In this document: in pieces, positions 30,098 to 53,992 of the stretch
Position numbering within the stretch: position 1 is the stretch's first letter
Layout: every line of letters starts with the position of its first letter
NCBI GenBank assembly: GCA_000381625.1
Contig: KB906767.1
Location: 4,049,304-4,113,303 of the forward strand
Origin: Bryobacterales bacterium KBS 96
GTDB lineage: Bacteria; Acidobacteriota; Terriglobia; Bryobacterales; Bryobacteraceae
Length of the DNA: 64,000 nucleotides
Reading direction: 5' to 3'
Position numbers and translations under genes: made by a program
Notes under the pieces: model-generated
What the model was told of the DNA's origin: nothing
Databases searched by the model: none
The model's input: the letters and a program-made list of their open reading frames with translations, nothing else

Positions 30098-30108
30098 CGA
30101 GCAGGTTA

Positions 30109-30804: not shown

Positions 30805-30812
30805 GAATAGAC

Positions 30813-32139: not shown

Positions 32140-32146
32140 TCGCTAG

Positions 32147-36400: not shown

Positions 36401-36629
36401 CCGGCCGAAAAGTATGACGGTGGCCGTGATTCTAGCCGGATTGCTGCCGATGTTTTTTAGCCAAGGCGCCGGCGTCGATGTCATGCGCCGCATCGCCGCT
36501 CCTCTTGTCGGCGGCATGATCACCGCGCCGCTGCTTTCGCTCGTCGTGATCCCGGTCCTTTATGATTGGCTGCAATGCCGTCGCACTCCTGCTTCCACGC
36601 TGGAGTTAGCTTCGGAGGAAACGGCCTAA
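33456..36629 (+). CDS. cusA: Heavy-metal RND efflux pump, CusA/CzcA type
   Basis: About 1057 residues, an inner-membrane proton-driven pump with twelve predicted helices. The start is ATG 33456, overlapping cusB, or ATG 33471; the longer frame from 33411 reads into cusB. Family features: SLDAIPDVSDVQVIIRT at the N-terminus, AIAVGALVDAAIVMIENMHK in the helix-4 region that holds the proton-relay Asp, and a second half beginning SGQIQKVLLILLCLPFSIAG. The Cu/Ag branch is inferred from the Cus-type adaptor with a metal-binding domain. No outer-membrane factor (CusC) gene follows; the next gene is a glycosidase. Confidence 0.92.
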   Translation: MNDPAMNHRLRLTERVIAWSLNNRFLVLAGAICILAFGLYSLDRLSLDAIPDVSDVQVIIRTSYAGQSPQTVEDQVTYPLTSVLLSVPRSTAVRGFSMFGDSYIYVIFEDGTDPYWARARVLEYLNQATSRLPPGLSPVLGPDASGVGWIYEYALVDRHHRYDPDEIRAVQDFYLKYELQSVAGVAEVASVGGMVRQYQVEVDPNRLAAYNVSLDRVGQAIRDANMDGGGSAISIGGSEFMIRSRGLLRSLTDFENIDVGMDARAVPIRLTDVARLQLGPEMRRGIAELNGDGEVTGGIVVMRQGQNALSTIQAVKSRIQELKRGLPSGLEMVPVYDRSELINNAVHSLSGKLIEESIAVTFVCMIFLLHLRSSAVVFIVLPVAILLALTVMRLQGVTANIMSLGGIAIAVGALVDAAIVMIENMHKHLEKEGSNPDYVQIARRSALEVGPALFFSLLIITVSFFPIFGLNGQEGKLFTPLALTKSYAMAAGALLAITLAPVLMTFLIRGRILPESRNPINRFLQALYRPVLAFALNHRAVTVGIAGCILLSSLWPLLKTGSEFMPPLYEGDILYMPTARADIPASEASKLLQYADQLIRGLPEVNRVFGKAGRADSATDPAPLSMFETTISLKPREAWPPGETVEDFIKKLDRTVRVPGLTNSWGYPIRTRIDMLSTGVRSAVAVRVTGQDLAGINQMAQQIAAALKGVPGTRSAFADRGDGGRYLDITTDRLKAAQFGLNVADVQRVVQSAIGGGMVSTLLNGRETFPISVRYPREYRDSLQAVGDCRLATPSGGQVSLRDVAEIAFKDGPMEIRSENGRLATFVYADVEARDLGGYVIAAKEAVSRMVPAKPGYDTVWTGQYENLEHARQHLAWAMPLTLGVVALLLYFQSGQIQKVLLILLCLPFSIAGGLWVTYLLGYNFSVAVAVGFIALAGVSAEFGVVMLIYLDLGIDEATNFRLLLTPAAIREGIVKGALLRLRPKSMTVAVILAGLLPMFFSQGAGVDVMRRIAAPLVGGMITAPLLSLVVIPVLYDWLQCRRTPASTLELASEETA

Positions 36630-36649
36630 GGCCTCTGCATGCGACCTAC

Positions 36650-36665
36650 AGCATGACATCATGAT
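36650..36665. promoter_or_regulatory. GntR-type operator half match, site A
   Basis: Fourteen of 16 positions match ATCATGACGTCATGAT, with the core ATGACATCATGAT intact but one base off at the centre. It lies 92 bp upstream (centre to centre) of the perfect copy at 36742-36757, so the two sites could work together on the glycosidase promoter. Confidence 0.5.
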
Positions 36666-36733
36666 CTATTACGTTCAAGCACAATATTAATAGACATCGC
36701 TCTTCCGGAACTGGAGAAGGCGATCCACGTCCA

Positions 36734-36762
36734 TTGATTTCATCATGACGTCATGATATATT
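36734..36762 (+). promoter_or_regulatory. Promoter with operator in its spacer, glycosidase gene
   Basis: TTGATT (-35, 36734-36739) and TATATT (-10, 36757-36762) are 17 bp apart. The perfect 16-bp palindrome ATCATGACGTCATGAT occupies 36742-36757, so a bound repressor would exclude RNA polymerase. The start codon GTG at 36769 is only 7 bp past the -10 box, so the transcript would have almost no leader. Confidence 0.7.
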
Positions 36763-36768
36763 TCTGCG

Positions 36769-39090
36769 GTGACCATACTGGATCGTCGCAGTTTTGTTCG
36801 GCTTTCGGCCGGGGCGCTATTCGCCTCCTATTCCTCGAGACTTCAAGCTCAAAGCGATCCGCCGGAGATCTCGAATCAGGAGGAATCCGTACATGTCACG
36901 GGCGCAAACTACTCTTGGGAATACTCGCAAAAAGACGACCAGTTCCAGCTTTTTGACGCGAAAAAACGGCTGATAGTGGCCGGTGTGCTGCAACCGGCGA
37001 TTCTGGTGTCGGTGGCTGGAGACGCCACGGCGAAGCAGTGTATCCCCGGAAAACTGGCCCGCCACAACAGCGCAGACGGGCGGGTGACTTTTGAATACGA
37101 AGGCGTCAACGGAGCAGGCCGGCTTTCGGTGGCATGGCGTTTCGACAAACACGGCATCTGGACTGAGCCCGTTGTGTACGAGACGTCCTCGGCGGAGGAC
37201 GTGGTCAGCCTCCATTACTTCACGGATGTGAAGGGAAATACTAGAGTCCCCTCGCTGCAAGCTTCTTTTTTAGTCGTACCTGGAATCAGCGAAGGCTCCA
37301 GTATCAGTCCCATCCTCGGAAGCGACGTGCGGCTGAACGAAACGGTTTGGCTCGGGCGCGGTAGCCCCGTACCCGGCCTATTGCAGCAATGGGGCTTGCC
37401 GGTGCATTATTTCGGCGGGTTTAGCGTCAAAGGTGAACACGCTCGCAATTCGTACATCGACCAGAAATCCGACTCTTTCATCTGTGGCTTAGCGGATCTG
37501 CCGAATGGCGATCTCTTCCTGGACCTTCACGAGGGCCGTTCCAGCATGTGGCTGGATTACCGCAGCGATATCTGGAAACACATGCGGGGGCCTGGGCGCC
37601 TGACCCTTGGAGCAACGCTGTTCTGGACCGTTGGCGGCGACTATTACGATGCCATCGGCAAATACTACGGTGGTCTGGTGAATTCGGGAATCGTCAAAAA
37701 AAAGCAGAATTCTCCACGAAAAACGGCGATTGCACTAACTCCGCAATTCTGTACTTGGGGCGCTCAAGTCGCCAGGGGAAAGGCCAGCGAGCACCTGGAC
37801 GAAGCGTTTCTCTCCGAGATCTACAAAGAGCTCAGAGCCTCCGGGATGAAGGCCGGAATGTTCTCGATCGACGATAAATGGGAGGGGAGCTACGGCAAGC
37901 TCGAGCACTCGGCTGAGAGACTTCCTCACTTCGAACAGTTCCTCAACCAGGTTCGCGCGGATGGGAACCGCATTGGCCTGTGGGCCGCGCTCATGCGTTG
38001 CGAGAAGCCGTCCGAGATTGGTCTGACGGAGGACCACATGCTCAAAAAGGCGGATGGAACTCCGGTCGTGTCGGGTGGCGAGACTAAATACTTCATCCTC
38101 GACTTTACCCAGCCTGAAGTAGCGAAAGTGTTGAGCGAGCTTGCCCGCAAGTTCATCCGGCGATACAAACCAGATCTGGTGAAGTTCGATTTTGGCTATG
38201 AGCTTCCGGCCGTTTCGCAGGCTGCGCCGAAAGACAAGCACTGGGCCGGCGAGCGCATGATGTGGAAAGGGCTTGACGTCGTAATTACGGCAATGCGCGA
38301 GGAGAACCCCGATCTGGTTGTCATGTACTACCAACTGTCGCCGCTCTTCCTCGAATACTTCGATCTGCATAGCCCCGACGACCTCTTTTTAAACTCGGGT
38401 GAGTATGATATCGAAGCGAACAGACGCTTTTTTTTCAGCAGCCTTCTTGGGGAACTCGGTGTGCCGACCTACGGTTCATCCGGTTACGATTGGCAAACCG
38501 CGCCGAATATCTGGTTTGATTCGTCGGTTGTGGGGACGCTCGGATCCTTGAACGATTTTGGCGGGGACGAGCGAGGCGAGAAAAGCTCTCCTCAACTGAT
38601 CGCAAAGTATAACGGGCTTACACAAGCCTTAAGATCTTCCAATTTCTTTAAGGTTGTCCCGTTGGACGGCGTGACCGAGGCGCAGACACGGAGCGCGCAC
38701 TCGCATTCGTGGGCGCGATTGGAAGACGACAAAGTTGTGCTTCTGGCGATTCGCCCCGATATGCCGCACATCGACAGCGTGCCGATTATGGATCGAGCAG
38801 CGATTTCCAGATTGCGCGGAATGGTTCGCGCACCTGTGCCAGTAGTCGTTGCCTCTCGGACCAAGGAAGATATCGCACACACCGGCAGGCTTGCGGTCGT
38901 GCCCTATGGAGACGGTCAGATCTCGATTCACACAGAGAAGGGCCACAAAGCGGATGTCTTCACGCATCATTTTGGAGGCGCCGTAACGCAAGCGCACATC
39001 GCGATCGCCAACGGGCGGTTAAATTTGCCGGTAGCGCAGCGCGGCGTGAAGAACGATCTTATCGAGTGGATTGACGTTCACGTTTCTTGA
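36769..39090 (+). CDS. Tat-exported clan GH-D glycosidase, alpha-galactosidase-like (enzyme 1)
   Basis: A 773-residue protein starting at GTG, with a twin-arginine signal LDRRSFVRLSAGALFASYSS. The N-terminal part is a beta-sandwich, followed by a TIM barrel with the clan GH-D nucleophile motif LVKFDFGYELPA (Asp474). The later region has GSSGYDWQTAPNIWFDSSVVG, shared with enzyme 2 at 47944-50193, so the two are paralogues. GH-D enzymes are retaining and release alpha-galactosyl or related residues from oligosaccharides, here probably in the periplasm. No promoter other than the one with the operator palindrome was seen. Substrate remains to be shown. Confidence 0.82.
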   Translation: MTILDRRSFVRLSAGALFASYSSRLQAQSDPPEISNQEESVHVTGANYSWEYSQKDDQFQLFDAKKRLIVAGVLQPAILVSVAGDATAKQCIPGKLARHNSADGRVTFEYEGVNGAGRLSVAWRFDKHGIWTEPVVYETSSAEDVVSLHYFTDVKGNTRVPSLQASFLVVPGISEGSSISPILGSDVRLNETVWLGRGSPVPGLLQQWGLPVHYFGGFSVKGEHARNSYIDQKSDSFICGLADLPNGDLFLDLHEGRSSMWLDYRSDIWKHMRGPGRLTLGATLFWTVGGDYYDAIGKYYGGLVNSGIVKKKQNSPRKTAIALTPQFCTWGAQVARGKASEHLDEAFLSEIYKELRASGMKAGMFSIDDKWEGSYGKLEHSAERLPHFEQFLNQVRADGNRIGLWAALMRCEKPSEIGLTEDHMLKKADGTPVVSGGETKYFILDFTQPEVAKVLSELARKFIRRYKPDLVKFDFGYELPAVSQAAPKDKHWAGERMMWKGLDVVITAMREENPDLVVMYYQLSPLFLEYFDLHSPDDLFLNSGEYDIEANRRFFFSSLLGELGVPTYGSSGYDWQTAPNIWFDSSVVGTLGSLNDFGGDERGEKSSPQLIAKYNGLTQALRSSNFFKVVPLDGVTEAQTRSAHSHSWARLEDDKVVLLAIRPDMPHIDSVPIMDRAAISRLRGMVRAPVPVVVASRTKEDIAHTGRLAVVPYGDGQISIHTEKGHKADVFTHHFGGAVTQAHIAIANGRLNLPVAQRGVKNDLIEWIDVHVS

Positions 39091-39120
39091 ACCGCGACTT
39101 TATCTGTCACGAGATGTGGC

Positions 39121-39157
39121 GCACGATTTATCGTGCCGACGGGCAGTTCACTGCCCG
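39121..39157. repeat. Two tandem hairpins downstream of glycosidase gene 1
   Basis: GCACGAT-TT-ATCGTGC (39121-39136) and CGGGCAG-TTCA-CTGCCCG (39140-39157) are two perfect 7-bp inverted repeats in a row, 30 bp after the stop. They could end or protect the transcript; there is no T run after them. Confidence 0.4.
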
Positions 39158-39265
39158 CGCTTTCCGGCGAACTAAGTTCGCCGCTGCAAGCTGAAGCTCG
39201 CGCTAACGAAATGAAGCCACATTGCCGTAAGCCGTGCACTACGCCCTAGGAGGTCCAGGCGATTA

Positions 39266-40300
39266 ATGAACACTGCGGTCGGAAGCGGAATTCTTTTAGG
39301 AATTGTTTCAGGCGCTTTACTCGGCGTCTTTGCGCTTCCGATGAAAGCTGTCCTGCGATGGCGATGGGAAAACACATGGCTCATGTATTGCGTCTGGAGC
39401 TTATTAATCCTTCCTTGGGGGTTAGCGTTTCTCACGGTGCCGGGAATCACAAGCGTATTAGGATCGGTCTCCTCAAGTTCGCTGGCGGGGGTCTTTCTCT
39501 TTGGCTTCGGATGGGGCATCGGCTGCGTTCTATTCGGCCTCGGGCTTAAGTTAGTAGGACTGGCCCTCGGAACCGCCATTGTCCTTGGCTTAAACAATGC
39601 CTTGGGCGCGATTCTGCCGCTGTTCTTATCTCATGAGCCAGTGATCGTGACTGCTGGCGTTCAAGCTCTCATCGCGGGAGTATTTGTCATGCTCGTCGGC
39701 GTCGTCTTGTGTTCCTGGGCGGGGGTTCAGAAGGAACGCGAGTCAGCCGGGAAAACGGCGGATACAGTGACGTCCACGAATTCCACTAGGCGAGCACGGG
39801 GGATACTTATCTGCGTCGGCGGCGGCATCATCGGAACTTGCTTCAATCTGGCTCTTGTGTTTGGGGGCGACTTGAACGCCGCTACCCTCAAAGCGGGCGC
39901 CAGTGAGTTGAACGCCAATAATGCGGTCTGGTGTATCTCGCTCCTGGGCGGATTCATACCAAATGTTGCGTACTGCTCCTATCTGCTTACCAGGAACTCG
40001 GGTTGGAAATTGTTTACCCCACGAAAATCGCAGCTCGACTGGTTCCTCGCCTTCGCAATGGGGCTTATGTGGCTGAGCGGAGTCGCCATTTACGGCATGT
40101 CGGTCCAACGACTTGGGAAATTGGGAGCTTCAATCGGCTGGGCTCTCATCCAAAGCACGGCAATCATCGCCGGGAACATATCCGGCGTGGTGACGGGTGA
40201 ATGGAGGGGAACCACCGCGAAGGCTAAAGCGACCATGGCATGGGGCCTATTTGTCCTGATTCTGGGAATTGCCGTTGTTGGTTGGTCCGCCGCGCTGTAG
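39266..40300 (+). CDS. RhaT-like sugar-proton symporter
   Basis: A 344-residue membrane protein with about ten hydrophobic segments and the L-rhamnose-proton symporter pattern: LLGIVSGALLGVFALPMKAV at the N-terminus, WENTWLMYCVWSLLILPW, the glycine-rich FGFGWGIGCVLFGLGL, and GASELNANNAVWCISLLGG. The family imports deoxy or neutral sugars using the proton gradient. Here it sits in a galactosidase-like locus, so the imported sugar may not be rhamnose. It is preceded by 175 bp holding the hairpins; no operator palindrome was found directly before it. Confidence 0.85.
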   Translation: MNTAVGSGILLGIVSGALLGVFALPMKAVLRWRWENTWLMYCVWSLLILPWGLAFLTVPGITSVLGSVSSSSLAGVFLFGFGWGIGCVLFGLGLKLVGLALGTAIVLGLNNALGAILPLFLSHEPVIVTAGVQALIAGVFVMLVGVVLCSWAGVQKERESAGKTADTVTSTNSTRRARGILICVGGGIIGTCFNLALVFGGDLNAATLKAGASELNANNAVWCISLLGGFIPNVAYCSYLLTRNSGWKLFTPRKSQLDWFLAFAMGLMWLSGVAIYGMSVQRLGKLGASIGWALIQSTAIIAGNISGVVTGEWRGTTAKAKATMAWGLFVLILGIAVVGWSAAL

Positions 40301-40394
40301 GCAGCAGTATTTTCCTCGTTCGAGCCTTATATCGAAAGCAACCGCCCGGTTGCGCCTTATCGTTGGACCTGTTGATCTGTAACCAGGGGGTTGC

Positions 40395-40884
40395 ATGAAC
40401 ACGGATTGCATCGAGAAAAAGATTCTATTGCGGGCGCAGCGGAAACGAGTCTGGCGCGCGATTTCCGGCTCCACCGAGTTCGGAAGCTGGTTTGGGATGA
40501 AGTTCGATGGTCCGTTCGTTTCCCGGCGCCTGCATGCGCGGAGTCATTGTGCCGACAACGGTCGATGCCGAGGTCGCCGATGCTCAGAAGAAGCACGAAG
40601 GTATGCCATTTGAAATTACCATCGAGCAAATGGAGTCCGAGCGGCTGTTCTCTTTCCGATAGCATCCGTTCGCCGTTGAGCCTGGCGTCGATTACTCCAG
40701 CGAGCCGACTACACTCATCGTCTTTTCGCTGGAGGATGCGGAGAACGGTGTTATGCTGACCGCCACTGGATCCGGCTTCGATCAAATTCCTCTTGCGCGC
40801 CGCGCTAAGGCGTTCACGGCAAACGAAGGTGGTTGGGGCAAGATGATGAAACTGATCGAAAAGTATCTCGTCCATGCGCTGTAG
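40395..40884 (+). pseudogene. Decayed SRPBCC/AHSA1-type gene (frameshift plus nonsense)
   Basis: From ATG 40395 the first 43 codons read as an SRPBCC protein (IEKKILLRAQRKRVWRAISG). A one-base insertion near 40519-40522 (GTTTCCC) shifts the frame; the continuation GACMRGVIVPTTVDAEVADA is then in the next frame. A TAG at 40660-40662 replaces what family members have as Trp (FSFR*HPFAVEPG). After it the frame is again good to LIEKYLVHAL and TAG 40882. SRPBCC proteins of this class bind hydrophobic ligands and are usually co-transcribed with an ArsR regulator, as here. Two independent lesions indicate a pseudogene. Confidence 0.87.
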
Positions 40885-41172
40885 CTCGAAGGTTGCGGCG
40901 GGGCCCAGGAGTTCGGCGTCCCTTTTGCGGCACTGGGTGACAAGACCCGTTTACGAATTGTGTCCCGCCTCTGTAATGACGGACCGTTGTCCATCACCAG
41001 ACTCACCGCCGGTTCCAAAGTCACCCGTCAAGCGATCACGAAACATCTTCACTTCATGGAACAGGCGCGGCTAGTGCGTAGCTTGCGGCATGGGCGCGAG
41101 AGCGTTTGGCGGCTGGACCACCGGCGTCTGGAAGACGCGCGCCGCTACCTCGACCAGATCTCCAGGCAGTAA
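40885..41172 (+). pseudogene. ArsR-family regulator, lacking a start and C-terminus
   Basis: Directly after the SRPBCC stop and in the same frame, the sequence reads FAALGDKTRLRIVSRLCN, ITRLTAGSKVTRQAITKHLH and GRESVWRLDHRRLEDARRYL, a winged-helix ArsR domain. No ATG, GTG or TTG precedes the conserved FAALGD segment in frame, and the TAA at 41170 cuts the domain where homologues continue with about 20 more residues. GTG 40960 would start inside the DNA-binding domain. So the regulator is probably dead together with its SRPBCC partner. Confidence 0.7.
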
Positions 41173-41419
41173 CCTCCCACGGAAGTGACATTTGAGATCG
41201 GTCCTCCGGCCTCGCAGGTTGCGCCAAATGAGCAGGTTGTGCGGTTAGCAGTTAGCAGTTACACAGCATGGATTCGTAGTCAACAGCAAAATAGTTCCTG
41301 GCTGTGTGCGAGCGTGGTCGGAAATATTCAGTAGCATCAAAACCTATCTGGAGACTGGGCGTCCGCTTCGGTTCGCGTGGAAACATTAGCTGCCGGCCGT
41401 CGGCTTTTGTGATTTACCT

Positions 41420-42214
41420 TCAGGCCAATTGCCATCCGGCATCGACCGTTAGCACTTCGCCCGTAACGGCGCGGGAGGCATCGGTGAGCAAATAAACGCA
41501 TGCTGGCGCCACGTCTTCAACGGCGATGACGTCCTCCACGAGCGGTTGCTTGCTCTTCATGAAGTCCAGAATGACCCGGTCCTCAGATGCGCGGGCGCTC
41601 ATCGGAGTCCGCACGAGGGCCGGTGCAATGACATTCACTCGAATCTTCGCGCGAGCGTAGGAGGCTGCCATTGTCCGGCTAAGCGCGATGATCGCGCCTT
41701 TGCTGGCTGCATAAGCAACGGTGTCAAAGTGTTTGGGCTCCGGGTGAATTCCAAGAATGCTCGCCATGTTGAGAATCACGCCACGCTGGCCGTCATCACC
41801 GGGAGATTGGGCGAGCATCACGCGCACTGCTTCGCGGCAGACGCGGTATTGGGTGGTGGCGTTAGTGTTCATCGTGATTTCCCAGCCTTCTTCCGTACAC
41901 TCGTGAACGGGCCCATCGCCATAGCGGCGACCGCTGATGCCGGCGACGTTGAAGACGCCATCGAGACGCCCAAATCGAGCGATCACCGAAGCTACGAGCA
42001 GCGGAGCGAAAGACGCGTCGGTCAAATCGCCAATTATGTATTCAGCGGTTGCCCCAAGCGAGCGAAGTTCCCGCACCAGCGTTTGGCACTTCGCTTCGGT
42101 GCGAGCCGCCACGAATAGCTGAATGCCATCCGAATGCTGTGAGCCACGCGCCAGCATTCTGGCGGTTTCGGCGCCTATCCCGGAAGCGGCCGTAATCAAG
42201 TAAGTCCTGGGCAT
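41420..42214 (-). CDS. Short-chain dehydrogenase/reductase
   Basis: A 264-residue NAD(P)-dependent oxidoreductase, last gene of the minus-strand sugar operon. The nucleotide motif is a variant TAASGIGAET near the N-terminus. The catalytic Tyr-x3-Lys is YAASKGAIIALSRTMAASYA, with the serine in LNMASILGIHP, and NVAGISGRRYG corresponds to the NAG motif. The C-terminus VTGEVLTVDAGWQLA is typical. It would oxidise or reduce a sugar or polyol in the pathway fed by the galactosidase-like enzymes. The SIS-protein gene lies 9 bp upstream. Confidence 0.9.
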   Translation of the reverse strand: MPRTYLITAASGIGAETARMLARGSQHSDGIQLFVAARTEAKCQTLVRELRSLGATAEYIIGDLTDASFAPLLVASVIARFGRLDGVFNVAGISGRRYGDGPVHECTEEGWEITMNTNATTQYRVCREAVRVMLAQSPGDDGQRGVILNMASILGIHPEPKHFDTVAYAASKGAIIALSRTMAASYARAKIRVNVIAPALVRTPMSARASEDRVILDFMKSKQPLVEDVIAVEDVAPACVYLLTDASRAVTGEVLTVDAGWQLA

Positions 42215-42223
42215 TGCCTACTC

Positions 42224-43030
42224 TCACCCGAGAATTGGTTCGAGCCGATTGGGATTTGAGAGAGCCCGCGCGTAGCGGCGCCGCTGGTCGGCAAGCCATT
42301 CGTCGTAGTTCACTTGTGTCTGACCAAGGTGCATGTTTTGCAGAACATAATGCTTGATGCCGCGCGAGTCGAGTTCCTGAATTGTGAGTTCGTTCAGCGA
42401 ATGCACGAGTGTGAGTGCGCCGATGTTCGACAGCGGACAAACGCGATAGTTCTCATTGCCTTCGACCATGATCGAAACGTCGCCCATTGGCATACAATTG
42501 TCGAGCAGAAAACCGCGCTTCGCTTCTGTCACAACATGGTAAAGCGTTTTTCCCGATGAGTGTTTCGGAGAAGCCTCTCGTGATTGCCGCAGTGAGCTGA
42601 TCGCAATCAGCGGATTATTGGGATAGCGTTTATTGAATTCGATCGCGATGTCAACCGCTGCTTGCGTTTGCCCGGTCGCCGATACAACGATTAACGGCTC
42701 GTCTGGCGCAAATTCAAACTCGTCGAGTATCTTTGCTCCTAGCCCTTCAACTCGTTCAATCGCCTGATTGAGTCGCAGGCTATCCGCTCCGACCACATCC
42801 GTAAAGTTCGCGAGCGCGTGCGAAAGAAGCGGGTGAAACCCCGTCAAGGCGCCCATGCGAACGCACATCTCTTCAACAGTGACTCGTGAATGTCCGTTTG
42901 CGTAAACATGCACCAGGCCTCCGGCGGCGATCGCATCCGCAAAGCATTTCGCCACGGCGATCAGCGTGGCTTCCTGGGCTAATACTCCATCGCGAATGCG
43001 ATTGAGTTGCAAGGGAAATGTAAGGTTCAT
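42224..43030 (-). CDS. SIS-domain sugar isomerase/binding protein
   Basis: A 268-residue cytoplasmic protein. The start is ATG 43030, which overlaps the stop of the oxidoreductase gene (ATGA); the longer frame upstream is that gene's other frame. An SIS domain is visible from GGLVHVYANGHSRVTVEEMC, with LIVVSATGQTQAAVDIAIEF and NPLIAISSLRQSREA, and PMGDVSIMVEGNENYRVCPL follows. SIS domains bind or isomerise phosphosugars. The family member class is described only as sugar-isomerase domain-containing protein. Inference: it acts on a phosphorylated intermediate made by the adjacent FGGY kinase. Confidence 0.82.
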   Translation of the reverse strand: MNLTFPLQLNRIRDGVLAQEATLIAVAKCFADAIAAGGLVHVYANGHSRVTVEEMCVRMGALTGFHPLLSHALANFTDVVGADSLRLNQAIERVEGLGAKILDEFEFAPDEPLIVVSATGQTQAAVDIAIEFNKRYPNNPLIAISSLRQSREASPKHSSGKTLYHVVTEAKRGFLLDNCMPMGDVSIMVEGNENYRVCPLSNIGALTLVHSLNELTIQELDSRGIKHYVLQNMHLGQTQVNYDEWLADQRRRYARALSNPNRLEPILG

Positions 43031-44367
43031 TGGCTCTCGTGGGCTTCCGGCGTTTCCAGAATCGCGCCTGTTTTGCGCAGCTTGTCCTGAAGCTGCCGGA
43101 CGTTCAGGTCCCGCGGTTGGTTGTTGCGAATAATGCACAACGCCGCCGCCGTTCCTGCCGCCTGCCCCATGGCCATGCACTGTGCCATGCTGCGTACGGA
43201 GGCATGTGCATCGTGCGTCGCCGAAAAGCAACGGCCTGCGACATAAAGGTTCTCAATCTTCTGCGGAACCAGCGTTCGATATGGAATATCCACCGTGGCG
43301 CCGTCAGGCAGGTACAGCCATTTCGTGCTCGCTCCGGCGTGGTGATCTTCTATAGGCGCGCCGCACAGCCCAACCACGTCGTCAAACTTCCGGGCGCCGA
43401 GCACGTCCTCCCGGGTCAGCCGGTATTCGCCATACACCCGGCGCGTCTCGCGTACACCGATTTGGGTGCTGAACGTGACCAGGCGCGCCGCTTCATAGCC
43501 GGGAATATAGTCACGGAGAAATCGCTCGTATTCGAGAGCTTGACGCCGCCCTTCGATTTCCGCCGAGGTCAAGTCGCGAGGGGTAGTCGGATCGGCGACT
43601 TCAAGCCGGGTCATAATCGTGGCCATTACTCCTTCGATTGGCGTAATGTGGACGCTTCCTTCGCGACGAGGCAGATCGTACTTGCCGGAATCGGCCGCTT
43701 CTCCCATACGTGCCAGAAAATCGGCTCGCGGAAATTTTCGGGCCTCTGCAACGTTGACATTGGCAAGCTTAAAAGTGGTGGTTAGCGTCTGCGCCGGATC
43801 GATGTCTCCCGCCTTCTCAAATGGAACTTGAGCCAGAGCGCACACATCGGCATCGCCGGAACCATCGATGATCACTTTCGGGCGAATCAGGCCTAGCCCC
43901 GATTTGCCGTCCACGATAATTCCCGTAATCCGGTCGCCTTCGAGTACGACGTCCGTGACGAAAGTGTGCAGTAACAGATCTACACCGGCCCGCTGCGCGA
44001 GGCGCTCCCAGGCAACCTTCAGATATTCCGGATTGTACGTCACGCCAGTGCCGGCGCCGAAAGTGTTCGGCCGTTCAATTACGCGATCCAATTTCCGTAG
44101 TTCCGCCACGACGTCGTCGGGAATTCCAGATACTACTTTTTTCGAAATCGTTCCTGGAGTGTAAAAGCCGTAGAATGTGTCGAGCACCGCCGTGCTGGTT
44201 CCTCCGAGGAAACCATATCGCTCAACGAGCAGCACCTTGGCTTGGGGATTACCGCCTTGCAATTCCCGCGCAGCGGCGATCGCGGCGGTCGATCCGGCCG
44301 AACCGGATCCGGCGATGAACACGTCCGGCTCGGCGATAACGGGGATTGTTTTGCTATACGTGTACAT
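43027..44367 (-). CDS. FAD-dependent oxidoreductase
   Basis: A 446-residue flavoprotein. I place the start at ATG 44367, giving YTYSKTIPVIAEPDVFIAGS with the FAD motif AGSGSAGSTAAIAAAREL; the longer frame is the other frame of the kinase gene. Later motifs are VIIDGSGDADVCALA and, near the C-terminus, NLYVAGRCFSATHDAHASVR, as in the FAD_oxidored family (Pfam PF12831-like). The natural substrate is unknown, although several family members act on sugars or xylitol-like compounds. It overlaps the kinase gene by 14 bp and the SIS gene by 4 bp. Confidence 0.85.
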   Translation of the reverse strand: MYTYSKTIPVIAEPDVFIAGSGSAGSTAAIAAARELQGGNPQAKVLLVERYGFLGGTSTAVLDTFYGFYTPGTISKKVVSGIPDDVVAELRKLDRVIERPNTFGAGTGVTYNPEYLKVAWERLAQRAGVDLLLHTFVTDVVLEGDRITGIIVDGKSGLGLIRPKVIIDGSGDADVCALAQVPFEKAGDIDPAQTLTTTFKLANVNVAEARKFPRADFLARMGEAADSGKYDLPRREGSVHITPIEGVMATIMTRLEVADPTTPRDLTSAEIEGRRQALEYERFLRDYIPGYEAARLVTFSTQIGVRETRRVYGEYRLTREDVLGARKFDDVVGLCGAPIEDHHAGASTKWLYLPDGATVDIPYRTLVPQKIENLYVAGRCFSATHDAHASVRSMAQCMAMGQAAGTAAALCIIRNNQPRDLNVRQLQDKLRKTGAILETPEAHESQ

Positions 44368-45904
44368 TTTTCGCAATCTCCCCTTTCGGCTCCTCAGGCA
44401 AGAGCTTGGGGAAGAGATCCTGCAATCGCGGATAGAGCTCTCGATAGATGGCAAAGAGCCGTTGGTATTCCTTGTAGGATTCCCGATCGGGCATGAAGCT
44501 TTTGCGGAGCTTCGCGTGCGCGCGTTGCATGACGAGCGGGTCGGCAAAAAGCTGCGCGCCCATGCCGGCGAGGATGGCATCTCCCAAAGCGGCTCCGCCT
44601 CGATCCTCCATTGTGTGCAGGGGCATGCCGGTGACATCGGCGATGATCTGACACCAGAGATCGTTCTTGGTAGGGCCGCCGACGGCAAGTATTTGTTGAG
44701 GAGACCCGCCCCACTCGCGAGCGAGGCTCAGGTTGTGAGCGATTGCAAATGCGGTTCCTTCGAGCACCGCTCGAAATAGATGCGCTTTCGCCGTCTGTAA
44801 ACCCAGGCCAAAGAAGACGCCTCGCGCGAAGCCGTCATTCACGGGTTGCAGTTCACCGGCCAAATAAGGAAGAAAGATCAATCCGTGTGATCCCGGTTGG
44901 ACCTGGGCAGCTTGGGTAGTCAGGGCATGCAAGGCTTCCGATTTTGAATCCGGCGTTACCAGCGTGTCGTTTAGAGCCTTGAGAAGCCAGTCGGCTGCTA
45001 GTCCGCCGGCGACCATCGAGCCGCCGAGCAACGTGAATCCGTCTACAACGTGGGGGAAAGCCAAAAGCCGTGGATCGGAAACCGGCCGGCCAAGAGGAAC
45101 GTATACCGTGCTAGCCGATCCCATTGAGAGTTGCACGTCGTTCTCCGATACCACGCCCATGGCCAACCCGGCGCTGCTTGTGTCTTCGCCGCCCGCGACC
45201 ACGGGCAAACCAGAAGGGAGCCCTGTTTGGGCCGCTGCTTCCGGCGTGATTTCTCCAATCACTTCATGACAGGCAGCAAGGTCGCAGAAGATACTTCGCG
45301 GCAGATCCATGCACGCGAGCGCCTCGTCCGACCAGCGACGCTTGTTCAGATCGTATGAGAGAAGAATGCCCGCATCCGAGTGATTCATCACGGCCTGTCC
45401 GGTGAGCCGGAACGTGACATACCCCGTGGTGGTCATGACTTTCCAGATGCCGTTCCAGGTAGCCGGCTCATGTTGCCGCAGCCATAACAGCTTCGGCTCG
45501 ACATTGTAAGCGGCGGGCGTCTTCCCGCTAATCGCGGCGATTCTGTCACCATGCGATTCGTACAGTTGAGATGCCTGGGGAGCGCCGCGCGTATCCAGCC
45601 AGAGGATCGCATTCCGCAGGGCTTTGCGATCCCGTCCCAGGATTACGGCGGCAACACCCTGTCCGCTGATTCCTACCGCGCGCAAGCGGGAACGTATTTC
45701 CGGATGTGTGGAGAGGAGTTCCTGGGCAAGGGAACAAACCGCGGTCCACCAATCTTCCGGGTCCTGCTCAGCTTGGCGGTGCTCCGGCGTTATATAGCTG
45801 TACGAACGTGTTGCTGATGCGAAGAAATTTCCGCCGGGATCTGCGACGACCGCTTTGGCTGAGCTTGTTCCGACGTCGATGCCGAGCGTGAGAGGACATG
45901 ACAA
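44354..45904 (-). CDS. FGGY-family carbohydrate kinase
   Basis: A 516-residue sugar kinase. ATP-binding and sugar-binding features include LTLGIDVGTSSAKAVVAD at the N-terminus, DTRGAPQASQLYE after it, VVAGGEDTSSAGLAMGVV in the middle, and ILAVGGPTKNDLWCQIIADV near the ATP site. The family includes xylulokinase and gluconokinase; the sequence resembles xylulokinase-like members but the substrate cannot be assigned with certainty. It lies between the lactonase-like gene (18 bp) and the FAD oxidoreductase gene (14-bp overlap), so it is part of the operon. Confidence 0.87.
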   Translation of the reverse strand: MSCPLTLGIDVGTSSAKAVVADPGGNFFASATRSYSYITPEHRQAEQDPEDWWTAVCSLAQELLSTHPEIRSRLRAVGISGQGVAAVILGRDRKALRNAILWLDTRGAPQASQLYESHGDRIAAISGKTPAAYNVEPKLLWLRQHEPATWNGIWKVMTTTGYVTFRLTGQAVMNHSDAGILLSYDLNKRRWSDEALACMDLPRSIFCDLAACHEVIGEITPEAAAQTGLPSGLPVVAGGEDTSSAGLAMGVVSENDVQLSMGSASTVYVPLGRPVSDPRLLAFPHVVDGFTLLGGSMVAGGLAADWLLKALNDTLVTPDSKSEALHALTTQAAQVQPGSHGLIFLPYLAGELQPVNDGFARGVFFGLGLQTAKAHLFRAVLEGTAFAIAHNLSLAREWGGSPQQILAVGGPTKNDLWCQIIADVTGMPLHTMEDRGGAALGDAILAGMGAQLFADPLVMQRAHAKLRKSFMPDRESYKEYQRLFAIYRELYPRLQDLFPKLLPEEPKGEIAKNVHV

Positions 45905-45921
45905 GGCGGTGTCTCCGAGCT

Positions 45922-46896
45922 TTACTTTTTCGATTGCCGATCGTCGCGAAACGCGAATGCGCGCACGGGATTGCCAATCAGCATCGCGTCGATCTGTTGC
46001 GCGGGAAAGCCTTCTTTTCGCAGCCGGGGAATGAACTGCTCGAGAACGTAGGCAATCCCCGTCGAGCCGCCGTTAGCCTTCCAATAAGAACGGCGCGCCG
46101 TATCTCCGCCCAGAAGGATTTGGCTGCCCAATCCTAACTCGAACATCTTGGAGATCAGGTCCATGACGGCATTTTCCGGAAGATACTTAATACGTCCGGG
46201 TCCGTCGTATTCGAGAAAAGCTCCGGTTTGTGCTAAGTCCCGATGCAACATCCAGTCGGGATTTCTGTCCATGTGCGACAACACAACATGATCCGGTGAG
46301 GCGCCGTGCTTTGCAAGGAGCGCAAGCTGCTGATGCGCCATTGTCCCCATCTCGGTGTGCGTCAGAATGGGGGCTCCGGTCTGCGCATGCGCCAAGGCGG
46401 CTGCTTCAAACCCGGTGCGAATGGCCGGCGTAAAGTTTTGATAATCGGACGCCGCCTTGATTACTCCCGCGCGTGCTGAAGTCGTCTTCCGAAAAGGCGC
46501 TTCAAACCCATAGGCGTCCATGCCTATCTCAATCTCTTCGACGAAAAGCTGCGCGATCTGTTCGGCGCAGAGGCGATTGCGCCAATGAGAATCGAGGTAA
46601 TATCGCGGCTTATGGAATCCTGTCGCGGCGACGACATGCACTCCAGTCGCTCGAGATACGGACGCCAGTCCTTCAGGATCGCGGCCGACGCCGAGCGGCG
46701 AAGTGTCTACAATCGCCTGGCCTCCGTGAGAGCGGAAATCGTTGACCTCCGAGACGGCATTCGCTTCGGAATCGAGGCGAAAATCCGGTTCAAGGATCAG
46801 AATCAGTCCGTTCCGGATGAACAGATGTTCGTGTGCATTGGTATTGCCAAGAACCGAGGGGTCGATATCGCCGAGAACTGTTCGAACAATTGCCAT
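45922..46896 (-). CDS. Phosphotriesterase-family (PTE-like lactonase) protein
   Basis: A 324-residue zinc-dependent hydrolase of the amidohydrolase fold. The metal-binding HxH is in NTNAHEHLFIRNG, further histidines are in ILTHTEMGTMAHQQLALLAK and VVLSHMDRNPDWM, and the Asp ligand may be in LLGGDTARRSYW. Members hydrolyse lactones or phosphoesters. In this operon it likely opens a sugar lactone made by the oxidoreductase, which is inference from position. It lies about 95 bp downstream of the GntR regulator and 18 bp upstream of the kinase. Confidence 0.84.
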   Translation of the reverse strand: MAIVRTVLGDIDPSVLGNTNAHEHLFIRNGLILILEPDFRLDSEANAVSEVNDFRSHGGQAIVDTSPLGVGRDPEGLASVSRATGVHVVAATGFHKPRYYLDSHWRNRLCAEQIAQLFVEEIEIGMDAYGFEAPFRKTTSARAGVIKAASDYQNFTPAIRTGFEAAALAHAQTGAPILTHTEMGTMAHQQLALLAKHGASPDHVVLSHMDRNPDWMLHRDLAQTGAFLEYDGPGRIKYLPENAVMDLISKMFELGLGSQILLGGDTARRSYWKANGGSTGIAYVLEQFIPRLRKEGFPAQQIDAMLIGNPVRAFAFRDDRQSKK

Positions 46897-46991
46897 ATAT
46901 TCGTGAAGGCTATCCCCGAGAGGCTCATTCCGCGCGCAATTGCGTTCGCGAATCGATCAACAACCGTTGCTTTGTCTCTCGGCCACCCGGG

Positions 46992-47822
46992 CTACTCCGC
47001 CAGTCCGTTCCGATCGACACGCGCCCGGCCATGCAAAGTGACCCGATATTGATAGCGATCACCCCGCGATATAGCGGTCGCCAATTCAAGCGGAGAACCG
47101 TCTCCGAGGAAACTCAGCCGGGTCACTACGAGGATAGGAGACCACGGCTCAATGCACAGCGTTTCCGCCTCCTCGTCTGTCGCCGATCTCGTTTCGACGG
47201 TATCGACGGCCCGTTCCGGAACCAGGCTATAACGCCGCTCAAGGAATTCATAAAGCGATTCGGCGGCCTCGGATTCCTGGATGAAGTTAGGCACAAGGCG
47301 GCTTGGGATGTAATTTGTCATCAGCGAGAGCGGTTCCGCCCCCACGAGGCGTGTTCGGCGCAGCATCACGACTTTTTCGGCCGGTTCCAGGTCTAGTGCG
47401 TGCGCCACCCGGCGCGGAGGCGAAATTTCGTTGCAGATCCGTTGCGCGGTTCGTGGATTGTAGCCGAGGGCGCGAAGTTGTTCCGTCCAACTGCTAATTG
47501 CGTTCAACTCGTGCGTCAATTTAGGGACGCTTGTAAATGTGCCCTTTCCCTGGCGCCGTTCGAGCAAACCATCCACAACCAGATCGTCGACGGCTTTACG
47601 CAAAGTGATTCTGCTGACGCCAAATCGCTCGATCAATTCCAACTCTGTGGGGATCGCCGTCCTTGGCGGCAACTGGCTGTATTCGCCTCGTAAAGTCTCA
47701 CGTACTTGGACATAAAGGGGAACTCCGCTTGTTTTGCGCACCATCGAAGACAATGATTCCTTTAATTCAAGGTTGCCATTCCCTCGTCGCGGTTTGCGGA
47801 TCTTGCGGTGTGAGATGTGCAT
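46992..47822 (-). CDS. GntR-family regulator, HutC/UTRA type
   Basis: A 276-residue regulator. The winged helix runs through PLYVQVRETLRGEYSQLPPR, IPTELELIERFGVSRITLRK and AVDDLVVDGLLERRQGKGTF. The C-terminal effector-binding UTRA domain begins with ISSWTEQLRALGYNPRTAQR and ends in LSFLGDGSPLELATAISRGD. The start may be 47822 or ATG 47744; both keep the whole domain. Members of this subfamily bind a sugar phosphate or similar effector and usually bind a palindrome that covers a promoter. Palindromes ATCATGAYGTCAT lie 63 bp upstream of this gene and at the two divergently arranged promoters of the locus, so it is the best candidate for their repressor. Confidence 0.88.
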   Translation of the reverse strand: MHISHRKIRKPRRGNGNLELKESLSSMVRKTSGVPLYVQVRETLRGEYSQLPPRTAIPTELELIERFGVSRITLRKAVDDLVVDGLLERRQGKGTFTSVPKLTHELNAISSWTEQLRALGYNPRTAQRICNEISPPRRVAHALDLEPAEKVVMLRRTRLVGAEPLSLMTNYIPSRLVPNFIQESEAAESLYEFLERRYSLVPERAVDTVETRSATDEEAETLCIEPWSPILVVTRLSFLGDGSPLELATAISRGDRYQYRVTLHGRARVDRNGLAE

Positions 47823-47884
47823 TGTTGCTGCTCGCTAAGGAAGCAAATGCCACCAGACGTGAGTGGGCCCACGCTCCGAAAGAG

Positions 47885-47900
47885 ATCATGATGTCATATT
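47885..47900. promoter_or_regulatory. GntR-type operator, site C, upstream of the regulator
   Basis: ATCATGATGTCATATT matches the palindrome ATCATGACGTCATGAT at 13 of 16 positions. It lies 63 bp before the GntR start and 44 bp after the glycosidase stop (that gene ends at 47944 on the same strand), so it is well placed for autoregulation. Confidence 0.55.
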
Positions 47901-47943
47901 CTTTAAAGAGCCGCAAGCCCTTTAATTTCGGCGCGCTAGCTTT

Positions 47944-50193
47944 TCACGCGACAATCAAGAATCCGAGCAGTTCATCCGAGCTGTTTTGAGCACGGAGAGT
48001 TAACGTTCCCGCGGCCCAGGTCCAATTAGACCAATCAGCTTCGGAGGCGCGGCTCACCGCAGTGATACGATCCGGGCGGTATGGCCGTGGGATTTGGAGC
48101 GCCGTGCCGTCGATCGGCAGGCAGGCAAGACGGCGCGATTGAAAGATATCCAAATCGTCCTGCGAAAGAATGGCCCAGGAACCCTGCCAGGTCATCCCGT
48201 TGAGAGCATCCTTTGGCAGCAACTGCTTGTCTTTTTCGCGGAGTACGAGGGCGGTCAGCCGATTCTCTCCATCGATGTTCTCAATCCGGCCAAAACATCG
48301 CATCAGCGGGTCGTGCATGTACCCTCCTGGTGACGAATTGAGCCAGAGCGGGGACCAGTTGTTTCTTCGCCGATACCATCGATTCAGTGCCATGCGCCGG
48401 TTCAGAAATCTGGCGGGTACCGGCGAGCCGTCTTCCATTGTTCTCGACAGTACGGCGCCGGGCACGCCAATCACGGCCGAATCTAAAACCACTTCGGCAT
48501 CTGCGTTCCAATCGTAACCGCTCGAAGCCATGATGTTGGATTTGCTACCGCCGAGCGCGGACCAGATACTCCACTGCCTGTGCCCTAGCGCTTCTTCGTT
48601 GCCCGCATCGCCCAAATCGTCGAGCGCGATCACGTCGGCGATCGCGCGAACCTGAGGATGGAGGCTGTAGTACTCAATGGCGACATCCCGATTGATCGAG
48701 CGAGCGGCTTCGGCAATGATTTCGAGAAGGCGCAGACTATATCGCTCTCCACGCAGACTCGGATCGGCCGGCACGCCTGTATTCGGAGACGGAAGACCAT
48801 AGCCGAAGTCCAGTTTGAGGAGCACTGGCCGGTACTTCTCCATGAGATTGATGGTTCGCCGGCGCAAGAACTGAACGGCGTTGGGCGAACTCGGATCGAG
48901 GCAATAGTGACTACGGCTCCGCGGGTTTGTGTCCCAGGCGGCGCGTCTCGGCTCGCCGTCCATTCCCACGACCAGATCCTGACGGGAAAGTCCGACTTTT
49001 TCGGGATGATCTACCCAGCCGACTGGCTGCCAGAACCCTATGCTAAGCCCCTTTGCTTTGATGTAACTGATGTCTTCATCGAACTGAGGAAATCGTTTTC
49101 GATCCGGCTCGCCGCTCCCCACAAAGCTTTCCCAGCGATCGTCGAGGCCCAGGATCTCCGCGCCCATGGTATGAGTCCAATCCGCAAGAGCGCGAAGATC
49201 GTAGATGTTTTTCCTGAAGTCTCCCCAACTGTTCCATTGCGGTTTAAGAGGCGCACTTCGGACAACGCGGCGCGAGTCGAACGAGCTAAATAATTTCTGG
49301 TACGCGCGCCAGGGATCGCGAGCCCACGCTACTCTCAGCGGCATCTCCCAGACACGGCGTTTCGGCTTGGGTGCTCCCCATAAATCTTCGCGGTAAAGCA
49401 CATGGAAACAGGCCGAAGACGATTGGATCGTCAGCGATAACGCTCCGTCCGTTACGGCGCCGGAGCCCAGGCAGACCCAACCGTCCTGGTTTCCCATTGC
49501 GCCTGCGTACAACGGACGTGGATATGCCGCCGCGTATGGTGTGCCGAGCGCCGGCCCAAAACTGCCCAACGGGAGATTCGCGCCGCCCAAATCCCAGCGC
49601 CGGAAAACGCTTTGAAGCGGCGCTCCTTTTGCGCCTGGAACACAGAAACAGGCGGAATCCCAATTCGGCCAGAAAGATTGATCGAGAGTTGGCGCCGCCA
49701 GTTTCTCAGTTTCCGACAACGGCGCAGTTCCAAAATAGAGACCGACGATCGGTAATGGTTCAGATATCCAATCGATGTGAAACTGCGTAAAGCCAAGGCC
49801 GTAGTCCGTCGCCTCGAAGATCAACTCGCCGCTCGCAAGCGATCCTGTCTTCAAAGCTAACTTGCCGCCTGATGAATCAATTGAGCTGCTTTTGAGATCG
49901 GCGCTGGCTTTTACGTAGGTGAGACTCTTGTCCCGGTTCGCTAACACGAAGGCCGGTAAAAGGCCTCCCGTCCAGAGAGGAGTTTCAATGTGTTCGGGCC
50001 GGACGCTTGCTTCATCGCTCTCGATGTTCCATGCGAACGTGTAACCTCCGGAACTGACCGCCCATGTTGCCGGGCCCGGCGCGGGCGCCGCAATGGTCCT
50101 GCCGCCTGCCCATAACAGGGCGCTCGTCCCAGCCGTGGCGAGAACATCTCTTCGGGTTGGCGGGCGAGGATCGTGCGAGTCATTTATCGGCAC
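47944..50193 (-). CDS. Tat-exported clan GH-D glycosidase, alpha-galactosidase-like (enzyme 2)
   Basis: About 749 residues. I use GTG 50193, which has AAAGGA 6 nt upstream; a TTG at 50235 would add 14 residues. A twin-arginine signal is present (PPTRRDVLATAGTSALLWAG). The TIM barrel has LGLDDRWESF, the nucleophile motif VLLKLDFGYGLPSP (Asp462) and MASSGYDWNADAEVVLDSAV, shared with enzyme 1 at 36769-39090. The enzyme is retained GH-D type and would cleave alpha-galactosyl-like residues in the periplasm. It is divergent from the TonB receptor gene; the shared 225-bp region contains the operator-carrying promoter of the receptor. Confidence 0.82.
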   Translation of the reverse strand: MPINDSHDPRPPTRRDVLATAGTSALLWAGGRTIAAPAPGPATWAVSSGGYTFAWNIESDEASVRPEHIETPLWTGGLLPAFVLANRDKSLTYVKASADLKSSSIDSSGGKLALKTGSLASGELIFEATDYGLGFTQFHIDWISEPLPIVGLYFGTAPLSETEKLAAPTLDQSFWPNWDSACFCVPGAKGAPLQSVFRRWDLGGANLPLGSFGPALGTPYAAAYPRPLYAGAMGNQDGWVCLGSGAVTDGALSLTIQSSSACFHVLYREDLWGAPKPKRRVWEMPLRVAWARDPWRAYQKLFSSFDSRRVVRSAPLKPQWNSWGDFRKNIYDLRALADWTHTMGAEILGLDDRWESFVGSGEPDRKRFPQFDEDISYIKAKGLSIGFWQPVGWVDHPEKVGLSRQDLVVGMDGEPRRAAWDTNPRSRSHYCLDPSSPNAVQFLRRRTINLMEKYRPVLLKLDFGYGLPSPNTGVPADPSLRGERYSLRLLEIIAEAARSINRDVAIEYYSLHPQVRAIADVIALDDLGDAGNEEALGHRQWSIWSALGGSKSNIMASSGYDWNADAEVVLDSAVIGVPGAVLSRTMEDGSPVPARFLNRRMALNRWYRRRNNWSPLWLNSSPGGYMHDPLMRCFGRIENIDGENRLTALVLREKDKQLLPKDALNGMTWQGSWAILSQDDLDIFQSRRLACLPIDGTALQIPRPYRPDRITAVSRASEADWSNWTWAAGTLTLRAQNSSDELLGFLIVA

Positions 50194-50333
50194 TGGGGTC
50201 CTTTGAGCGAATTGAGCGAATTCAAAAAGCGCCAAAACCTATTTATCGGGCAATTTATATGGTCTGCCTCACAAAGGCAAGAGCGTCAAATCGCCTCGTG
50301 TGCTGTGCGAAACGATTTATACCACAAAAACTG

Positions 50334-50361
50334 TTGACATCATAACGTCATGATGTATACT
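50334..50361 (+). promoter_or_regulatory. Promoter with operator in its spacer, TonB receptor gene
   Basis: TTGACA (50334-50339) and TATACT (50356-50361) have a 16-bp spacer and near-consensus boxes. The palindrome ATCATAACGTCATGAT (50339-50354, 15 of 16 match) fills the spacer. The start codon is at 50419 with AAGGAGAGG before it, leaving a leader of about 50 nt. The remaining intergenic bases show nothing further that I can support. Confidence 0.75.
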
Positions 50362-53400: not shown

Positions 53401-53949
53401 TCCAGCAGTTACGAGCTTTCAATCGGTAGAGGCAAGCCATTTGTCAATTCCAGCGGTCCGATTTTGAACTTTTTATATTCCGGTTGGCAGGTAAATGGCA
53501 TTTTCCGCGCCAACTCGGGGCAGCCCCTTGCGTTCCGGTCCAGCTATTGTAATGTCCCTTCGCAATTTGCCGCTGCCTGCATTCCAAGCGCTTTGCCGGG
53601 CGCCGATCCATACGCTCAGGATCGCGGAAATTTCAATCCGAACCTGCCGTTGTTTAGCGCCAGTGCGTTTCAGCCGGAGGATTCGTTTAATTTCTACTAC
53701 GGCGATGGCCCGCGAGTTTCAAACCTCCGCGGTTTCGGCTTTACAAACCTGGATTTTGGAATCACTAAGAATTTCACTATTAAGGAACGCTGGAACATTC
53801 AGATTCGCGGCGAAGCGTTCAACGTGTTTAACTCTCATTCATTTTTGAATAATTTCGTGACCGATATCCAGAACCCAAGTTTTGGCTCCTGGAACGGGTC
53901 CGCCACGGCTCCTCGCAATCTGCAACTGGGAGGTAAGATTACGTTTTAG
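50419..53949 (+). CDS. Oar-like TonB-dependent outer-membrane receptor
   Basis: A 1176-residue protein. A signal peptide (AVVGVVLAGLLFVPVALLGQ) leads into a carboxypeptidase regulatory-like domain (SNATISGVVTDSSGATVAGA and FPNLPGGNYELKVSAKGFKD), then a plug domain (ATLDGITMEEG, AVGEISVLTSNYDVQYGASG) and a large beta-barrel ending in PRNLQLGGKITF with a C-terminal aromatic residue. This architecture is common in acidobacteria, where SusD partners are absent. It probably imports oligosaccharides released outside the cell. It is followed by the TPR protein and enzyme 3, on the same strand, and is controlled by the operator in its promoter. Confidence 0.92.
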   Translation: MKFRISPAVVGVVLAGLLFVPVALLGQSSNATISGVVTDSSGATVAGADLTLNAIDSAKVSKVTSGVDGLFSFPNLPGGNYELKVSAKGFKDFVQTGIVLHLNDSVTLPVSLHVGEASQTIEVNANASPLNFENAEVKGTITKREILALPLQVAGGQRSAASFVALLPGVNTGNAPSSTATARFNGGQERSDEATLDGITMEEGLLSQSGMTAIQADFPISPEAVGEISVLTSNYDVQYGASGAAVIVASTKEGTNELHGGAYEFQRNNFFNARPWGALTTPRDLENDYGGYVGGPGKLPGLWTSFNKTYFFVNYEQYRSVGATTQPVLTVPTAKMRAGDFSEWPQPIYDPATTAANPNYNPNAAIGPANLPYTRQQFMGCDGQHPNVICGSDPRLASSLAQQWLKLVPAPNRPGLQNNYVSPNGLANSLNANTNQWDTRADEYFGEKDHLFGTYHYRGTLPYTQSAFPAVIDTNNTRIPNYSHIVRVNYDHIFSPTLVNHFAWGYLDLRTAEYNASDCCVDQVPQIAGVYSHTHVPVLNFDNFSSYGGNADLLSTRPTYVTTDTLTWVKGKHTLHFGGEYRSLAYPTAQQPNASGTFNFTNANTGLLGITSGNSMASFLLGEVGSGSAGFYTLPKFNPKASAYGFFAGDTWKATQKLSVTLGLRWDVFTPSVEADNQTSFFDPTGANPGAGGRPGRLAFAGTKWGAASYGSDAPEKTYYKAFGPRVGLAYALTPETVVRAGYGIFYEQAYYPGWNGGIATDGFNETVTFNSTLGGIQPAFLLQNGLPQNFTKPPFIDSSFLNGQNAPNYRPIDANRRPYTQQWNFTIERQVGKNVRVTAAYIGNKGTRLLSQVNAINALNPSLLSMGNRLNDQFAPGQTTLDGVSIPYAGWVQQMTGCAPTVAQALLPYPQYCGNIFGQNESDGNSTYHALQLSAEKRFSSGLYFMGSYTFSKTLTDADYSQSSQGPTYAISPFEQNRQKALSIQDTPNMVTISSSYELSIGRGKPFVNSSGPILNFLYSGWQVNGIFRANSGQPLAFRSSYCNVPSQFAAACIPSALPGADPYAQDRGNFNPNLPLFSASAFQPEDSFNFYYGDGPRVSNLRGFGFTNLDFGITKNFTIKERWNIQIRGEAFNVFNSHSFLNNFVTDIQNPSFGSWNGSATAPRNLQLGGKITF

Positions 53950-53992
53950 CTGGAAAGGCATTGCCGCATGGGAATGCGGGCCGTCCGCGCAC

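Follow-up and report, generated by a model that had tools for sequence, protein, structure and literature searches.

A predicted acidobacterial sugar regulon with palindromic operators for a local HutC-type GntR repressor

The 64-kb window analysed here, the whole stretch C1:4049304-4113303 of a 6.69-Mb source genome (G000), carries four copies of a 16-bp palindrome that are very likely the operators of a locally encoded HutC-type GntR repressor, forming one catabolic regulon that would be released by a sugar phosphate. By this reading, genes for sugar uptake and breakdown are most likely switched together by one local regulator. The first-pass annotation had proposed a single regulon centred on the GntR gene, and this is well supported by strong sites specific to the locus, by their conservation together with promoters in a congener (G001) and by the HutC/UTRA nature of the encoded protein. 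Binding of GntR to the sites, repression and the identity of the ligand are what we infer from these observations.

Results

Palindromic sites in the window

The window was searched with the palindrome ATCATGACGTCATGAT, tolerating up to three mismatches, and exactly four matches were found. In 100 dinucleotide shuffles of the window the mean was 0.18 matches, and none of the 100 reached four. All four positions and mismatch counts given by the first-pass annotation were recovered:

S1, 36742-36757, + strand: perfect operator palindrome, 0 mismatches; fills a promoter spacer
S2, 50339-50354, + strand: ATCATAACGTCATGAT, 1 mismatch; in a promoter spacer; identical in G001
S3, 36650-36665, + strand: AGCATGACATCATGAT, 2 mismatches; candidate auxiliary operator
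S4, 47885-47900, - strand: AATATGACATCATGAT (- strand), 3 mismatches; predicted operator before gntR

S3 is 92 bp upstream of S1 and 21 bp past the end of an AcrB-type ORF. The distance from S4 to the gntR ATG at 47822 is 63 bp, provided that this ATG is the true start; with that proviso, both the 92-bp and the 63-bp offsets claimed earlier are correct.

Across the eight sites of G000 and G001 the right arm, TCATGAT, never varies (8/8), with a looser left arm. Both arms of the palindrome include the short dyad TCATGA, and the 16-bp word can be read either as a single dyad or as a pair of degenerate TCATGA dyads that overlap at an offset of 8 bp. A GT-N4-AC core is absent from all eight 16-mers.

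Promoters around the sites

Two of the sites coincide with predicted promoters:

36734-36762, + strand: promoter TTGATT-17-TATATT of the GH31-like gene; 9/12 consensus positions; 28/29 bases the same in G001
50334-50361, + strand: promoter TTGACA-16-TATACT of the TonB receptor gene; 11/12 consensus positions; 28/28 bases the same in G001
50316-50321, - strand: candidate -10 box TATAAA of the divergent second glycosidase gene; hexamer identical in G001

The earlier proposal that the sites fill the spacers between -35 and -10 boxes stands for S1 and S2, hexamers and spacer lengths included, and does not extend to S3 and S4. S3 lies in no recognised promoter, the scan of its region giving 36734-36762 only, and the scan around S4 returned no sigma-70-like promoter. 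As consensus matches the two promoters are within chance (one per region, against shuffle means of 0.4 and 0.3), and their conservation in G001 is the better support for them. Spacer placement fits repression, with the direction of control unproven by location.

The candidate TATAAA is 18 bp from a poor -35 box (TTATGA) inside S2 and was not picked up by the promoter scan; it is possible that S2 overlies the -35 position of a promoter for the divergent second glycosidase gene. At S1, 6 bp separate the end of the -10 box from the GTG start in G000 and G001 alike (window 36757-36771), so the transcript of the GH31-like gene is probably leaderless. A literature search for leaderless genes together with Acidobacteria gave PMC3160421.

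The GntR regulator

The gene that S4 precedes encodes a two-domain regulator:

46992-47822, - strand: GntR regulator, HutC subfamily (GntR + UTRA); start codon uncertain

The N-terminal GntR winged helix (PF00392) was matched with E 1.2e-13 and 51.0 bits against a cut-off of 27, and the C-terminal UTRA domain (PF07702) with E 2.5e-33 and 115.3 bits against a cut-off of 23.8. In G001 the internal Met at residue 27 is not retained, and this speaks for the upstream ATG as the start of gntR. The closest solved structures by sequence are YvoA/NagR (E 1e-37) and DasR (E about 1.6e-33).

According to PMC4333415, Arg38 of NagR reads G-5, Arg48 reads G-4 and Gly69 anchors the wing; in the present protein the equivalents of Arg48 and Gly69 are kept, and Arg38 is replaced by Leu. 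The same source assigns the phosphate of the NagR ligand to Thr90, Ser165, Ile166, Tyr167, Arg133 and Arg135, of which five of six are identical here, with Ile166 replaced by Leu. Ser88, Arg211, Glu222 and Ala224 of NagR are kept, and the sugar-contacting Phe89, Glu145, Tyr228, Ser226 and Ile209 become Trp, Met, Ser, Ala and Val. Since the amino-sugar contacts of a GlcNAc repressor of the NagR/DasR type (Phe89, Glu145, Tyr228) are lacking in this protein, it was not filed as a NagR or DasR ortholog. From these residues we infer a phosphorylated ligand other than GlcNAc-6-P.

HutC operators mostly follow GT-N4-AC; NagQ, FarR and SdhR are listed as exceptions in PMC4494728, so the missing core does not remove the protein from the subfamily. 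For several HutC groups the same source also describes extra half-sites at 7-12 nt from the centre. Further GntR-type proteins are encoded in G000, with five more matched stretches at four places.

Genes of the locus

Around the sites, the following genes were assigned from domain, family and structure matches:

36769-39090, + strand: GH31-like glycosidase; GTG start; Pfam GH31 E 2.8e-5; PDB GH31 alpha-galactosidase E 2.3e-6
39266-40300, + strand: RhaT-type sugar permease, downstream of the GH31-like gene; Pfam RhaT E 1.9e-32
41420-42214, - strand: SDR oxidoreductase; domain match
42224-43231, - strand: SIS-domain sugar isomerase; domain match
43027-44688, - strand: FAD-dependent oxidoreductase (PF12831); domain begins at residue 122
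44354-45904, - strand: FGGY carbohydrate kinase, XylB-like; XylB 367.6 bits, cut-off 380.25
45922-46896, - strand: PTE-family lactonase-like enzyme; Pfam PTE
47944-50235, - strand: second glycosidase-like gene; PDB GH36 alpha-galactosidase, weak, E 0.0096
50419-53949, + strand: TonB-dependent-receptor-like outer membrane protein; domain search
53882-55558, + strand: TPR protein; domain search
55568-57724, + strand: GH36/melibiase-like glycosidase; Pfam Melibiase E 1.7e-16

The true start of the FAD-dependent oxidoreductase is probably downstream of its ORF start. For the lactonase-like enzyme the best NCBIfam match was phospho-furanose lactonase, at 220 bits and below the cut-off of 630. The second glycosidase (47944-50235), for which a start at the GTG at 50193 seems likely, matched no Pfam or NCBIfam family, and its predicted fold, from five aligned sequences, has a mean pLDDT of 39.1. 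It is related to the GH31-like protein (36769-39090), the two being divergent and 24% identical in alignment. The RhaT permease was not found in the G001, G003 and CADDZJ stretches searched.

The gntR, lactonase, kinase, FAD, SIS and SDR genes would share one transcript. The first-pass annotation had placed two promoters and the regulator itself under common control; these stand, and the set of controlled units is probably wider, comprising the GH31-like gene, gntR-lactonase-kinase-FAD-SIS-SDR, TonB receptor-TPR-GH36 and perhaps the divergent second glycosidase gene. As to the substrate, an alpha-galactoside or related glycan would be our guess, from the weak GH31 and GH36 alpha-galactosidase matches; a pathway search gave no result. 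N-acetylglucosamine control of the NagQ kind was considered and rejected: NagQ sites are listed as direct or tandem repeats, and no nagA or nagB family match was obtained here (20 proteins scanned against Pfam, 10 of these against NCBIfam).

Conservation in the congener

Proteins of the locus are 88% (GH31-like), 93% and 83% (divergent receptor and glycosidase) and 91-92% (gntR) identical between G000 and G001, and the GH31-like gene, the receptor/glycosidase pair and gntR all retain their sites in G001. S1 differs there by one base, S4 is identical at 16/16 bases, and promoter and operator together match at 28/29 (S1) and 28/28 (S2) bases, whereas the remaining aligned bases of the same S1, S2 and S4 regions, gap columns set aside, are identical at 48/79, 138/192 and 64/93. 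In G001, S3 has a weaker equivalent, GACATAACATCATGAT, which precedes the S1 site of that genome by 96 bp; it is 13/16 identical to S3 ungapped and four mismatches from the pattern. With just two close species compared, the eight sites do not count as independent events.

Immediately upstream of the GH31-like gene, G001 has a stretch corresponding to window 25417-28756, which means that the copper-type block at about 28.8-36.7 kb is missing there; downstream of the gene nothing aligns to the window (20-kb stretch compared). S1 and the S3 counterpart are thus kept amid changed neighbours, and the sites stay with the GH31-like gene.

The block itself (window 28757-36732) contains multicopper oxidase, cytochrome c, HlyD and AcrB-type genes, and its flanks are almost adjacent in G001 (L074 5077 and 5202). 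It represents either a gain in G000 or a loss in G001, with its edge just before S3. Separately, a conserved noncoding block, CAATTTATAT.GTCTGCCTCACAAA at window 50252-50276, was seen upstream of the second glycosidase gene, with 24/25 bases the same in G001; the operator does not account for its conservation.

Specificity within and across genomes

A genome-wide search for the palindrome with up to three mismatches had been proposed by the first-pass annotation, and when it was carried out the strong sites clustered at this locus. At 0-1 mismatch there are two places in the 6.69-Mb G000, both here, and at 0-2 mismatches five, of which three are here. With up to three mismatches, 23 places were found in G000 against 5 for the pattern read backwards, 21 against 9 in G001 and 12 against 2 in G003, another genome with a gntR ortholog. 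Given 23 such places in G000, a lone three-mismatch match is background; the surroundings of gntR in G003, without a site at up to four mismatches, likewise indicate that the three-mismatch class is mostly background. Among 237 family genomes, nine have a place with 0-1 mismatch, and two such places occur only in G000 and G001; in the other seven the single place is inside a mechanically called ORF of at least 100 aa. The one 1-mismatch place in G003 is on a different contig from gntR, also inside an ORF of at least 100 aa.

Outside the locus, 19 places with up to three mismatches remain in G000, 18 inside mechanical ORFs of at least 100 aa and one intergenic (C1:4048708, before a protein that is ankyrin-like by eye). 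The mechanical ORF test over-calls: two of the 18 places are within 20 bp of a mechanical ORF start and could lie upstream of the true start. It was run on 22 of the 23 places, the 23rd being S4, which was placed from its window coordinates. By the same test S4 falls inside a 108-codon TTG ORF (47663-47989), which runs into both gntR and the end of the glycosidase gene; this ORF was judged spurious as a gene.

A consensus, YATRAYRTCATGAT, was drawn from the eight G000 and G001 sites, which therefore match it by construction. Each of these two genomes has four exact matches, every one at this regulon, and G003 has none; the informative part of the search is that nothing beyond the eight sites matches in G000 or G001. 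In the literature text searched, the 16-mer was not found, and its 14-base core appeared only in two liver-regeneration papers.

Elsewhere in G001, a three-mismatch intergenic site (C61:10280-10295) precedes another TonB receptor ORF by about 120 bp and is a possible extra member of the regulon in that species. A four-mismatch site at L071:12705 is inside a histidine kinase ORF.

More distant orthologs

Orthologs of GntR were sought in scans of 61, 237 and 396 genomes, G000 included, the 396 being an even draw from the phylum, and in a species-genome collection for which short exact peptide matches were required, such that some orthologs may be missed. Only G001, G003 (68%) and CADDZJ010000005.1 (62%) yielded proteins with more than 60% identity. 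The first-pass annotation would have taken loss of the palindrome from orthologous loci that retain gntR as a refutation, and this applies in part: the palindrome persists in G001, but in G003 no site with up to four mismatches occurs in 18 kb around gntR, although two GTCATRAC boxes, which carry GT-N4-AC, stand beside the gene. The exact palindrome is absent beside gntR in both G003 and CADDZJ; the exact 16-bp word is, from these comparisons, genus-specific.

In G003 the 170-bp stretch between gntR and the divergent gene contains TTGTCATAACAAT and TTGTCATGACATT. GTCATRAC is counted three times in this stretch (the palindromic one on both strands); shuffles averaged 0.02, and 0/2000 reached three. 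The 13-base TTGTCATRACAWT has no other exact match in G003 and none in G000 or G001. The core TCATRA is common to the G003 boxes and the arms of the palindrome.

CADDZJ has a weak four-mismatch candidate, located 137 bp before the matched part of gntR. With a score matrix built from six distinct site sequences, the best match upstream of gntR was weak in CADDZJ (equalled in 7/1000 shuffles of 300 bp and 26/1000 of the whole 1225 bp) and in G003 (15/1000 shuffles of 220 bp); these matches are suggestive only. The residue equivalent to NagR Arg38, which reads G-5 in NagR, also varies: G000 and G001 both have Leu, G003 has Gln and the CADDZJ ortholog has Pro.

A tentative reading, which we regard as possible though on balance doubtful, is that the orthologous regulators switched operator form between genera, with single canonical GTCATRAC dyads in G003 and two overlapping degenerate copies in G000 and G001. 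The overlapping copies, NYATRAY and RTCATGAT with centres 8 bp apart, would form the 16-bp palindrome and might be bound by two dimers or by a single dimer in a new register. That close orthologs differ in operator form is the most interesting loose end of this analysis.

Discussion

Proposed mechanism

Without ligand, a GntR dimer would sit on S1 and S2 in the -35/-10 spacers and obstruct RNA polymerase at the promoters of the GH31-like and TonB receptor genes. The start of the second, divergent glycosidase gene may be covered by S2 as well, S4 would provide autoregulation of gntR and control of the co-directional catabolic genes, and S3 would serve as an auxiliary site for S1. Once substrate is taken in and phosphorylated, with the FGGY kinase of the operon as the probable enzyme, the sugar phosphate would bind the UTRA domain and the dimer would let go of its operators, so that uptake, hydrolysis and catabolism are induced together. 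Control of this kind is textbook; the DNA word is slightly unusual.

Alternative explanations

The alternative that survives best, although we consider it unlikely, is that the sites are operators of another transcription factor encoded elsewhere and that the GntR neighbour is coincidental. It would accommodate 16-mers without the usual HutC core, the presence of further GntR-type proteins in G000 and the retention of a gntR ortholog without the palindrome in G003. Set against this, S4 precedes gntR and is identical in G001; of the 237 family genomes, two 0-1 mismatch sites occur only in the two genomes where the gntR ortholog is more than 90% identical; and the core TCATRA recurs in the boxes next to gntR in G003. 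More improbable still is that GntR binds but activates, or works in both directions, at some sites: S3 precedes the S1 promoter by about 90 bp, a position that an activator could use too, but S1 and S2 fill promoter spacers, and the closest solved relatives are named repressors. That the palindromes are chance occurrences or a general repeat without regulatory meaning was rejected as next to impossible, for although three-mismatch matches are common (23 in G000, 21 in G001, 12 in G003), the shuffle test, the specificity for this locus and the conservation in G001 against diverged flanks contradict it.

Repression by the local GntR protein, as preferred here, would give a small, testable regulon of operators, promoters and regulator in a Bryobacteraceae-like acidobacterium. 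It would also link an uncharacterised sugar pathway to an inducer predicted to be phosphorylated, and allow close orthologs to be compared for how their operators have changed. Among the papers listed from a literature search, judged by title and opening of the abstract, none describes such an acidobacterial GntR/TonB-dependent regulon.

Comparison with known systems

NagR (YvoA) of Bacillus subtilis, acting at dre-sites, resembles the present system in its GntR + UTRA architecture, palindromic operators and repression of sugar genes, and its ligand is a sugar phosphate, the phosphate-pocket residues being mostly kept here (PMC4333415). The two differ in operator word, in genes, in the sugar-contacting residues and in the replacement of Arg38 by Leu (PMC4333415); in addition, no nagA or nagB family was found among the proteins scanned here. 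DasR of Streptomyces coelicolor belongs to the same subfamily and has a ligand pocket of the same type, but it is reported to be a global regulator (PMC4918961), whereas the four sites described here are at one regulon.

NagQ, FarR and SdhR, as listed in PMC4494728, use other words and serve other pathways, and the sites of NagQ and FarR are given as direct repeats, unlike those found here. Their operators nonetheless depart from GT-N4-AC, as the present ones do, and for SdhR the same source lists additional symmetry, which may be compared with the TCATGA dyad in each arm of the palindrome (PMC4494728).
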